Below, in pieces: positions 4,881 through 6,748 of a stretch of DNA of 13,664 nt. Below the pieces are notes generated by a model. It was not told the DNA's origin. It saw only the letters and a list, made by a program, of their open reading frames with translations, and did no database searches. This DNA is from an uncultured Candidatus Saccharibacteria bacterium (GTDB taxonomy: Bacteria > Patescibacteriota > Saccharimonadia > Saccharimonadales > Saccharimonadaceae), in the NCBI GenBank assembly GCA_947364965.1, contig CANAUU010000019.1, forward strand, positions 1 to 13,664. The letters are read 5' to 3'. The position numbers were made by a program, and so were the translations under genes. Positions within the stretch are counted from its first letter, which is position 1. Every line of letters starts with the position of its first letter.

Positions 4881-4924
4881 CACTATTTTGCGGACAATTC
4901 GGTCTTGAAATTGCTTTAGTATGA

Positions 4925-4933
4925 TGCTAGAAT
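4925..4933 (+). promoter_or_regulatory. Possible extended -10 (TGCTAGAAT) for a very short plus-strand transcript
   Basis: TGC plus TAGAAT (5 of 6 matches to TATAAT) precedes the terminator-like hairpin at 4949-4982. A start near 4940 would give an RNA of only about 43 nt. No protein gene lies between them. Weak evidence. Confidence 0.25.
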
Positions 4934-4948
4934 GGGGTTGTTAGGTTT

Positions 4949-4982
4949 TTACTTTCGCTTCTTTTTAGCGAAAGTAATTTTT
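4949..4982 (+). terminator. Orphan intrinsic terminator-like hairpin
   Basis: A perfect 11-bp stem (TTACTTTCGCT 4949-4959 with AGCGAAAGTAA 4967-4977), loop TCTTTTT, followed by TTTTT (4978-4982). The T-run lies on the plus strand only, yet there is no plus-strand gene upstream (radA is on the other strand). Either it ends antisense or spurious transcription toward 5240, or it ends a tiny RNA from 4925-4933. It overlaps the 3' end of the candidate minus-strand small ORF. Confidence 0.6.
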
Positions 4983-5038: not shown

Positions 5039-5229
5039 AACCTGCCCTCCTTTCTCCCTTGTTAAAGTTGCGTCATCAAGACCGAAATTTGTCCGTGAAA
5101 TTAGCGTAGCATACTTTGAAGACTTTTACCAAGCACAAGCACGAAGATTTTGAGTTTTGGGGATTGTGGCTATGGTGAGGATGATGGCTCCCGCAGTTAG
5201 GAAGATTTTGCTTGCGGTTTGAAAATGTG

Positions 5230-5238
5230 TGATATAAT
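5230..5238 (+). promoter_or_regulatory. Extended -10 promoter TGATATAAT of the FISUMP surface-protein gene
   Basis: TG at 5230-5231, A, then TATAAT at 5233-5238; a possible weak -35 is TTGCGG at 5212-5217. The predicted start is 5244-5246, which coincides with the first base of the long RNA helix in the leader. This leaves an untranslated leader of about 250 nt, very long for this window. Confidence 0.75.
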
Positions 5239-5240
5239 GG

Positions 5241-5395
5241 GGTTGTCTATACAATGTGTTATTAAACGAGTAAATCGTTTTTGTTTATCTTCGGTTTTTA
5301 CTGTTGAAATGGCGCCGTAAGGCACAGTGCAGTAGAAAATCGAAAGGTTTACTCGACGCGTTGTATAGACACCCTTGCGGCGTCATTTTTGTTGT
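5241..5395 (+). ncRNA. Candidate structured leader RNA: three-helix rod with loop-to-tail pseudoknot
   Basis: Pairings worked out by hand: helix 1, 5244-5259 with 5356-5371 (16 bp, two G-U); helix 2, 5267-5276 with 5346-5355 (10 bp, one G-U); helix 3, 5292-5303 with 5330-5342 (12 bp, one bulged A, two G-U). The apical loop (5304-5329) contains GGCGCCGTAAGG (5311-5322), which pairs over 12 contiguous bp (two G-U) with CCTTGCGGCGTC (5373-5384), directly after helix 1. ATTTTT follows at 5385-5390. The loop can alternatively form a small GCC-GTAA-GGC hairpin. It starts at the predicted transcription start and lies in the leader of a surface-protein gene. I recognise no known riboswitch or RNA class. 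The outer helix also resembles terminal inverted repeats of a small mobile element (16 of 19 identical), but the differences preserve G-U pairing, which favours an RNA. Confidence 0.65.
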
Positions 5396-5485
5396 AGGGC
5401 TTTAGTAGTTCCGGCCAGAGATTGACCGGGATGAGGCGAAAAGGTTCGGACGGAAGTGGCGCGCGGGGTGTCTATCAACAACAAA

Positions 5486-5491
5486 AGGAGG
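5486..5491 (+). promoter_or_regulatory. Shine-Dalgarno that decides the surface-protein start
   Basis: AGGAGG lies 6 nt before the ATG at 5498 and thereby excludes the upstream in-frame GTG at 5456. The A-run preceding it (5478-5486) can pair with TTTTGTTGT at 5387-5395, and GGGTGTCTAT (5466-5475) can pair with 5365-5374 in the structured leader. Confidence 0.85.
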
Positions 5492-5497
5492 GCTGTG

Positions 5498-6748
5498 ATG
5501 CGAAGCCAAAATAAATGCCAGGTTGGACGGGAATGTCGGACTGGGTGTTTAAGTTATAGAAACTTTAATGCGTTGGGGAGAGCGGGGTGTGTGGGGTTGG
5601 CTGTGCTGGCGTTCATGTTAGTGAACCCAGTAGTTGGGAATTCGGCAAGCGCACTGGAGGAGATTGATGAGGAGGGTGGTGATATGACTGCTCCATCCCC
5701 AGCAGATGACCCCGATGCGGTCATCATGCCAGCAGCTGCAACTAACTCGACAGTGGCAATCTCATTTTCTCCAACGTCGGCAAACGGAACCGTGACTCCG
5801 ATTGACTCAAACGGTGCTAAAGCCAAAGTAGACGTCAAAGCTACAGTCCGAGTCCAAAACTCGGGTGGGTACTCGGTCTATGTTGGTAGTAATTCTTCAC
5901 AACTGAAGAATGGTGCTAATGTGATTGAATCAGTCGGTTCGACAACAACATATGCTAATCTACCTGTAAACAGGTGGGGCTACTCATTCGCGTCTGGTAC
6001 TACCGCAGCAGATAGCTATAAAGCAATGCCAGCTACTCTACGTGGAACAGCACTAGACTCAAACAACAATACTAACATCAAAGACGAAACCCGGAACTAT
6101 ACCCTTAGCTTCGCAGCTAACATCGGAGCAGATAAACCTGCCGGAACCTACACCAACCAAGTGACAATGAGTGTGGTGAGTAGTCCGCTGGAGGTGACTA
6201 ATAAGTTTGGGATAGAAACGATGCAAGAGATGACGAGCGCGGTTTGTAGCCAGGCGGAGGCTGGGGCGAGCCAGCAACTCAGAGATACGCGTGATGGGAA
6301 AAGTTATTTGGCGACGAAGCTGGATGACGGGAAATGTTGGATGACACAGAATTTGGATTATAGTCTCTCTAACGGAAAGTTTCCTACAGGATATTATACT
6401 TGGAATGAGGCGAAAACAGTGTGTCCAAGTGGTTGGGGATTACCTACATCGAGCGAGTTTAGGAATCTTTTGTCGGCGTATTCGATCACGAGTAGTGAAA
6501 GTAGCATGACAAAGTTAATGGGATCACCGCTAAACTTCGTGAAGAACGGTTATGTAAAAAGCGGCACTACGGTTGCGACTGGAGTTGGGGAGCGGGGTGG
6601 GTATTGGTCGTCTACGATAGCGCCTTACACCATTGATGATGATTCGGTAATCGTATACCTTTTAAGTTTCAGCGGTACCGACAAAATCCAGAGTGACGCT
6701 ATGAGTGAGGATTCATACGGTTATTCTGTTCGTTGTATAGCTAAATAG
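5498..6748 (+). CDS. Secreted surface protein with C-terminal FISUMP domain
   Basis: The product is 416 residues from the ATG with AGGAGG. It has a long basic N-region, a hydrophobic signal segment (about 28-47) and likely cleavage after NSASA (52). An acidic linker (53-75) precedes a Ser/Thr/Asn-rich beta domain (about 82-230). The FISUMP domain spans about 250-416, shown by RDTRDGKSYLATKLDDGKCW, MTQNLDY, CPSGWGLPTSSEF, GGYWSST and the terminal YSVRCIAK. C250, C280, C309 and C413 could form disulfides and hence depend on the exported thioredoxin protein at 8551. The FISUMP fold is related to C-type-lectin-like/FGE folds and occurs in surface proteins; the ligand is unknown. The long structured leader suggests regulated expression. 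Base composition changes near 5690 and 6172 suggest a mosaic gene. Confidence 0.88.
   Translation: MRSQNKCQVGRECRTGCLSYRNFNALGRAGCVGLAVLAFMLVNPVVGNSASALEEIDEEGGDMTAPSPADDPDAVIMPAAATNSTVAISFSPTSANGTVTPIDSNGAKAKVDVKATVRVQNSGGYSVYVGSNSSQLKNGANVIESVGSTTTYANLPVNRWGYSFASGTTAADSYKAMPATLRGTALDSNNNTNIKDETRNYTLSFAANIGADKPAGTYTNQVTMSVVSSPLEVTNKFGIETMQEMTSAVCSQAEAGASQQLRDTRDGKSYLATKLDDGKCWMTQNLDYSLSNGKFPTGYYTWNEAKTVCPSGWGLPTSSEFRNLLSAYSITSSESSMTKLMGSPLNFVKNGYVKSGTTVATGVGERGGYWSSTIAPYTIDDDSVIVYLLSFSGTDKIQSDAMSEDSYGYSVRCIAK

Follow-up and report, generated by a model that had tools for sequence, protein, structure and literature searches.

The stretch of DNA analysed in this work (the window, 13,664 nt at its full length) carries on the + strand a leader region lying between an extended -10-like box and a surface-protein gene. 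The features of the leader and its gene are as follows.

5230-5238, + strand: extended -10-like element TGATATAAT, read from the sequence, 5 nt upstream of helix 1
about 5243-5245, + strand: predicted transcription start at the foot of the rod, placed from the -10-like box
5244-5259, + strand: basal helix P1, 5' arm; pairs with 5356-5371, with covariation in the family
5267-5276, + strand: helix P1b, 5' arm; pairs with 5346-5355 (10 bp)
5277-5289, + strand: U-rich, one-sided 5' hinge CGTTTTTGTTTAT; the genus alignment keeps a U-run at this place
5290-5304, + strand: apical helix P3, 5' arm; pairs with 5329-5344
5307-5322, + strand: loop element L AAAUGGCGCCGUAAGG, in the 24-nt apical loop; complementary to T
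5329-5344, + strand: apical helix P3, 3' arm; 15 bp with 5290-5304, one base bulged
5346-5355, + strand: helix P1b, 3' arm; pairs with 5267-5276
5356-5371, + strand: basal helix P1, 3' arm; pairs with 5244-5259 (16 bp), with covariation in the family
5368-5384, + strand: terminator-like hairpin GACACC-CUUGC-GGCGUC, read from the sequence; AUUUUUG follows, to 5391
5373-5388, + strand: tail element T CCUUGCGGCGUCAUUU; pairs with L and overlaps the hairpin 3' arm and the U-run
5466-5475, + strand: downstream box D GGGUGUCUAU, 9 nt ahead of AAGGAGG; complementary to AUAGACACCC at 5365-5374
5483-5492, + strand: Shine-Dalgarno region AAAAGGAGGG, read from the sequence
5498-6748, + strand: surface-protein gene, 416 aa, with an N-terminal hydrophobic segment and a match to Fib_succ_major (PF09603, E 4e-9)

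The original prediction had described a rod of helices of 16, 10 and 12 bp beginning at the predicted transcription start of a surface-protein gene. The two lower helices were correct and the apical one has to be redrawn as 15 bp with one bulge; the rod (5244-5371) is thus a stack of 16, 10 and 15 bp in which the hinge interrupts the 5' side only. The -10-like box ends 5 nt before helix 1, and the downstream product has the hydrophobic N-terminus and PF09603 match listed above. The proposed pairing of the apical loop (5311-5322) with 5373-5384, 12 contiguous bp including two G-U, was confirmed, and an AAAU/AUUU extension of this core brings L:T to 16 bp (5307-5322/5373-5388). The predicted fold energy of the window leader is -61.3 kcal/mol, compared with -37.9 +/- 3.6 kcal/mol for shuffled sequences (z -6.5; 0/200). 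GACA at 5368-5371, the end of the P1 3' arm, is also the start of the 5' arm of the terminator-like hairpin. Three features had gone unnoticed before: the tail also forms a terminator-like 3' arm, the leader belongs to a large family, and there is a further box near the Shine-Dalgarno sequence.

Relatives of the leader were searched for with a tail pattern and with covariance models. The tail pattern (up to 3 mismatches) gave 13 matches in the genome of the window, on 12 leaders, and the reversed pattern gave none there at the same setting; the matches on contigs C76 and C81 are two sides of one locus, the contig ends carrying the same stretch. Covariance model R1 yielded 23 matches in this genome at E ≤ 0.01 and, at the same threshold, 54 in G055, 30 in G353 and 61 in G375, where the weak matches include mirror matches on the opposite strand. 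Such opposite-strand matches lying over strong ones are apparent mirrors of the palindromic rod and were not counted as leaders. Above 60 bits there were 39 rows in G055 and 43 in G375, both of the window's genus. Across the family, R1 (E ≤ 1e-3) found the leader in at least 38 of 199 genomes and at least 22 of 61 genera. Model R2, for which 50 leaders from several genera were used, found it across the class in at least 68 of 244 genomes and at least 30 of 108 genera (E ≤ 1e-4), and across the phylum in at least 16 of 379 genomes, 15 of them within the class; all these counts are lower bounds, the best 8-15 candidates per genome having been scored. In genera outside that of the window there were mostly one or two matches per genome among the best candidates scored. 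The sole match outside the class in the phylum scan (G689) lies on contig 291 of about 320, next to a gene similar, by eye, to those at L128-L130; it is likely a product of misbinning. A search of named genomes with the exact L...T pattern returned 89 stretches. Among the 80 loci listed, 74 are titled Candidatus Saccharibacteria, and the other six carry the titles Patescibacteria group, Nomurabacteria, Bacilli, Oscillospiraceae or 'bacterium'. On the strength of these titles the class is taken to be that of the Saccharibacteria.

The Rfam scan that had been proposed (Rfam 15) gave nothing at gathering thresholds in the window, and at E ≤ 10 over 5150-5500 only two snoRNA models appeared (E 8.5 and 9.9). 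On 19 relatives nothing fell on the leaders, the matches listed (tRNA, RNase P, sub-threshold) lying elsewhere. A literature search on leader RNAs, riboswitches and terminators of Saccharibacteria, with subscription papers mostly outside its scope, found no description of the element; one paper (PMC11665869) mentions riboswitches as a possible tool. The sequence comparisons suggest that the element is a member of an apparently undescribed family of 5' leader RNAs of the Saccharibacteria class. The family and its loop-to-tail complementarity are, in our judgement, almost certainly real. We regard it as a new RNA family whose type of function is already known; what sets it apart is its architecture, its distribution within a candidate-phylum group and its multiplication in front of surface genes.

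Several contigs end within ∼30 nt past a leader tail (C76/C81 of the window's genome, G000; contig ends of G055; L084, L150, L170, L202, L210 and L212). Assemblies seem to be interrupted by the repeated sequence after the tail, and the number of surface genes may be underestimated as a result. One contig (L200) has two leader matches ∼480 nt apart.

Next, we examined the pairing of the basal helix P1. From 81 loci, the leader parser obtained 72 rows at 70 loci; after removal of one spurious row (L088-2408), 71 distinct leaders remained. These had been preselected for a helix score of ≥20, and the pairing figures are conditional on a helix having been found. Four loci with a tail (L042, L044, L052 and L063) had best helix scores of 16-19 and fell below the cut-off; the tail expression failed to match L017, L056, L057 and L072, L013 covers half of a locus, and L041 and L050 had been excluded beforehand for their protein-coding look (by eye). 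Within the 71 leaders, a leader's own P1 arms pair at 15.6 of 16 positions and swapped arms at 7.1. Because the arm was picked as the best helix, the choice was repeated on control DNA: the best score averaged 38.7 (minimum 25) in the leaders, 15.8 (maximum 30) in shuffled upstream DNA and 15.9 in another leader's DNA.

Covariation was scored in three alignments, in each case without correction for relatedness. In A1 (46 leaders; L049, L062, L064, L018 and L069, which have large inserts or are short, were dropped, and 20 of the 31 G055 leaders then left were set aside as well), both sides change at 13 of 15 P1 pairs and at 7 of 16 L:T pairs, and covariation was 0.412 compared with 0.177 after shuffling (0/500) and at most 0.163 with slid partners. 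A2 and A3 are hand-picked sets: A2 (50 leaders of several genera) has double changes at 19 of 29 pairs and a covariation of 0.486 vs 0.175 shuffled (0/500), and A3 (31 leaders of other genera) gave 0.269 vs 0.132. The covariance-model search of Saccharibacteria genomes that had been suggested returned a large family with covariation above shuffles, and numerous homologous leaders with compensatory changes support the original view of a cis-acting RNA of no known class. The sense strand of P1 contains 110 G-U pairs and 7 A-C or C-A mismatches in the 71 leaders. That G-U is common and A-C rare, when wobbles would be mismatches on the other strand, marks the sense-strand RNA as the selected molecule. 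The U of these wobbles is on the 5' arm in 103 cases and the G in 7; the 5' arm is G-poor.

A MITE-like or other DNA element, or an accident of inverted repeats, had been named as the alternative. The inverted-repeat ends (84% complementary over 19 nt in the window leader) and the many copies agree with it. The copies nevertheless share the pairing and not the arm sequence, the 5' arms being only 36% identical across the 71 leaders, and their wobbles mark the sense RNA; nearly all copies that were read sit between a -10-like box and a gene. In addition, the exact L...T pattern had no match in viral contigs, and BLASTN of the window leader found no phage or plasmid match. The copies lack a common terminal sequence, and membership of a MITE or transposon group was rejected. 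We regard this explanation as extremely improbable.

The loop element pairs with the tail at 11.65 of 12 positions in the related leaders, compared with 8.5 for shuffled loops. Swapped tails fit L as well in the 71-leader set (11.8 within genomes and 11.3 overall); the set is uninformative on own versus swapped T because T is nearly invariant in the genome that supplies most pairs. In G055, T is identical in 32 of 32 leaders and the varying L pairs 12/12 in every one, with only such changes as wobble pairing tolerates. In the genome of the window, the 3' half of L pairs with its own T at 123 of 161 positions in 23 leaders (C41 and C55, in which the script apparently misplaced L, were retained), a mean of 5.3 of 7 vs 4.5 with the T of other leaders, and none of 100,000 permutations of the 23 did as well. 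Joint changes of the two strands were also seen by eye. Both L and T are changed in L126, where AAATCGGCATCGCAC pairs with GTGCGGTGCCGATTT; in L135 each of the two strands carries a single additional base; and L248 and L255 combine CGGCACCACGC with GCGTGGTGTCG, the terminator arms and L all being kept with another sequence. In L252, CACC is replaced by CAAC twice, in L and in the 5' arm of the terminator, and GGTG of T by GTTG. This joint change of three strands is what two competing pairings predict. Little is strongly conserved in the genus alignment beyond L, T, CACC before T and the U-run of the hinge; in the alignment of other genera the 3' strand, GUGAAUGG, is better conserved. A T-like stretch within the rod, just 5' of the apical helix (T'), was tried as a competitor for L and rejected, having 83% complementarity and covariation not above shuffles.

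The number of copies raises the question of action in trans, in which terminated leaders would serve as small RNAs whose L pairs with the T of a different leader, so that surface proteins are expressed in concert or to the exclusion of one another. There are 23 copies in the genome of the window, G055 has 39 strong matches and G375 has 43, and by complementarity L and T are largely interchangeable within a genome (11.8/12). The preference of L for its own T in the window's genome favours cis action instead, and most genomes outside the genus have one or two matches among the best candidates scored. No RNA bearing T elsewhere in the window's genome was found within 3 mismatches of one tail pattern. 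Action in trans is in our view very unlikely.

The tail is also the 3' arm of the terminator-like hairpin. Of 145 leaders scored, 122 have the outer hairpin pair (84 G-C, 37 A-U and 1 G-U) and the other 23 have an A-C mismatch there; six more leaders did not parse. In A2 an A-U/G-C exchange occurs in 11 of 50 leaders, at the sole hairpin pair in which both partners vary. The L:T covariation, the outer pair and the joint change in L252 indicate that a terminator and an antiterminator pairing, which exclude each other, are both conserved. On this sequence evidence we favour, with a fair degree of confidence, the reading that the leader is a cis-acting transcription attenuator in which L:T serves as antiterminator against an intrinsic terminator. 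L would capture T, the terminator would be blocked and RNA polymerase would read into the gene (ON); with L occupied or delayed, the T hairpin would form and transcription would stop after about 145-150 nt (OFF). The median energies over the 71 leaders are -7.2 kcal/mol for the hairpin and -26.1 kcal/mol for L:T, the latter computed as a duplex without a pseudoknot or loop penalty. Since L:T is so much the stronger, readthrough would be favoured unless L is held or slow, and the OFF state would need kinetics or a factor.

The window hairpin carries an A-C mismatch within its stem (5371/5381) and was absent from a simple terminator scan of the window; the predicted energies here are -5.2 kcal/mol for the hairpin and -27.7 kcal/mol for the L:T duplex. 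One terminator pair is lost in this copy and L:T is intact (G-C at 5314/5381), hinting that it may be set mostly ON. The weakness of the hairpin, the 23 outer mismatches in 145 leaders, the stem mismatch in the window, the absence of its hairpin from the terminator scan, the single covarying hairpin pair and the lack of a gene function common to the whole set outside the genus count against an attenuator. The L:T helix abuts the U-run and could itself be read as the terminator: the loop would zip onto T up to the U-run, the pseudoknot would be the OFF state, and a factor holding L would turn the gene ON. L:T does take in part of the U-run (AAAU/AUUU), is far stronger than the local hairpin, and is left unbroken in the window copy, where the local hairpin is broken. 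The local hairpin would, however, be pointless if L:T terminates, and it is mostly kept (122/145), shows the exchange in 11 of 50 leaders, and changes together with L in L252 and L248. Termination by L:T itself is judged unlikely.

As to the surroundings of the leaders, a -10-like hexamer lies 2-10 nt upstream of helix 1 in 63 of the 71 leaders (in the TGn form in 52), and by eye directly upstream in 23 of 23 leaders of the window's genome. Outside the genus, 36 of 37 loci have an ORF that starts no more than 75 nt past the leader (median distance 38 nt), and AAGGAGG precedes the genes of 20 of 21 own-genome leaders tested. The -10-like boxes and the closeness of the ORFs make it likely that the leader sits between a promoter and a gene that has no promoter of its own. 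One well-scoring leader (G000:C26:5158-5304) had no Shine-Dalgarno-led ORF behind it that the script could find. Within the genus set, 52 of 71 leaders have a script-readable downstream ORF, and 49 of these 52 ORFs have a hydrophobic N-terminal segment; Fib_succ_major was matched by 8 of 10 sampled ORFs (E ≤ 1e-3), two of them above the curated cut-off. The copies in the window's genome mostly precede genes for proteins with a signal peptide. At least five leaders of the window's genome (C4, C19, C34, C55 and C82) precede ORFs covering PF09603 matches, many others running into contig ends. Downstream genes outside the genus are diverse (20 proteins scanned): they encode a Tsp45I-type restriction enzyme, N6/N4 and C5 DNA methylases, type IV secretion pilins, DUF4352 and Ltp lipoproteins, an NHL-repeat protein and proteins without a family. 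Surface genes and exchangeable accessory genes are common there, and one function shared by all was not seen. N-terminal transmembrane segments were tried as a shared property and set aside as not convincing (19 of 36 downstream ORFs vs 29 of 74 in a background that includes spurious ORFs, a few ORF starts being set too early by the script).

L116, L121 and L132, of other genera, stand directly before restriction-modification genes (for an N6/N4 methylase, a Tsp45I-type enzyme and a C5 methylase). A short protein starting MK(D/N)RKTYK is found behind L128, L129, L130, L237 and L249, in several genera and at the out-of-class match; the two tested (L129 and L237) had no Pfam family.

A third strand lies near the Shine-Dalgarno sequence. 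In the window's genome, 15 of 21 leaders have a box 3-11 nt before AAGGAGG that pairs with the 3' strand of the rod over 7-13 nt; the test covered 21 of the 23 leaders, C26 (no gene found) and C76 (contig end) being excluded. A leader's own box fits better than swapped ones (summed best run 188; 0/20,000 permutations). Box D was also seen by eye in several G014 leaders, and is not evident in G055 or other genera. A second copy of L, matching T at 10 or more of 12 positions, lies between the U-run and the gene in 7 of 7 leaders of G009, where the match is perfect, and in 25 of 31 of G055 (7% and 5%, respectively, in shuffled sequences); in G000 (1/10) and G014 (1/6) it is no more frequent than in shuffles. 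With box D and the second L copies, the tail region can have a partner beyond L and the hairpin. From these complementarities we think that the third strand would add another switching step once readthrough has occurred, or couple the leader to translation: the box (in the window's genome) or the second L copy (in two relatives) may reset the structure once polymerase has passed or act on translation.

Box D also agrees with a function as a 5' stabiliser or processing element, in which the rod would guard the mRNA or be cut by RNase III and box D would then capture the 3' strand of the rod and form a new 5' hairpin by the Shine-Dalgarno sequence. The rod starts at the predicted 5' end, 43 of 71 leaders have 23-26 pairs on the lower side of the hinge when folded with L and T held open, and box D prefers its own rod 3' strand to swapped ones. 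This explanation leaves the L:T covariation and the U-run unaccounted for, however, and box D was tested in the window's genome and is not evident in G055 or other genera; we hold it to be improbable. Under the attenuator reading, the apical arm would be able to bend back at the hinge and so carry L to T, next to the foot of the rod. Above the hinge, defined as the most 5'-lopsided gap, there are 12-18 pairs in 48 of 71 leaders and 7-12 pairs in 27 of 31 leaders of other genera. The pair numbers below and above the hinge gave a correlation of -0.55, which lends no support to fold-back in a test that is biased by the choice of hinge.

The leader was compared with known systems. Like the preQ1-I, fluoride and ZTP riboswitch platforms and attenuators, it has a helix that overlaps an arm of an intrinsic terminator directly before a gene. 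Unlike them, it carries the competing strand in the apical loop of a ∼40-pair rod with a one-sided hinge, shows little rod sequence conservation within a genus and no evident ligand pocket, and can be present in dozens of copies per genome. In such platforms (see also PMC11625349) a pseudoknot or an antiterminator competes with an intrinsic terminator. T-box riboswitches also combine a long 5' rod with a terminator and antiterminator, and the L motif UGGCACCGC resembles part of the T-box UGGNACCGCG; the leader differs in having no Rfam match and no tRNA-specific region that could be seen. T-box membership was rejected: there was no T-box match in the window (at gathering thresholds, and at E ≤ 10 in 5150-5500) or on 19 relatives (E ≤ 1), and in place of the invariant UGGN bulge the column before GGC covaries with T (CG 29, UA 12, GC 5, other 4; n=50). 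The repZ leaders of IncB and ColIb, which control replication, resemble it in having an apical loop that base-pairs with a complementary segment further along the leader; the repZ pseudoknot acts on translation, whereas the loop partner here is a terminator-like arm. The put and EAR antitermination RNAs are likewise structured leaders that favour readthrough, but they act on polymerase and on distant terminators, and the complementarity in the present leader points to the adjacent hairpin.

The Saccharibacteria in culture are very small cells living as episymbionts on other bacteria. The leaders, which covary, occur in at least 30 of 108 sampled genera of the class and reach dozens of copies, mostly before surface-type genes, in genomes of one genus, would make up a major surface-protein regulon in genomes of 0.7-0.9 Mb. 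They also offer a natural series of ∼150 distinct variants of a single fold whose distal loop, at the tip of a ∼40-pair rod, can capture a terminator-like arm. A more ambitious proposal is a switch class running the surface repertoire, with a rod and pseudoknot for each of dozens of surface-protein genes per genome, cross-talk in trans and boxes at the Shine-Dalgarno sequence as a second layer, so that RNA folding, and not DNA inversion or transcription factors, would set which adhesins an episymbiont presents to its host; we consider this a long shot.

Two further sites were noticed in the window upstream of the leader. At 4905-4977 there is a second promoter-like site, TTGAAA-17-TAGAAT, followed by GGGGTTGTTAGG, which is 88% identical over 17 nt to the -10/start region of the leader, and by a strong terminator-like hairpin at 4949-4977; this site is perhaps a truncated leader or a short RNA. 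At 5044-5053, GCCCTCCTTT has 10 nt of complementarity to the Shine-Dalgarno sequence of the surface gene (5484-5493). The minus strand there reads AAAGGAGGGC, by eye a few bases ahead of an ATG, and may be a remnant of the start of another surface gene.
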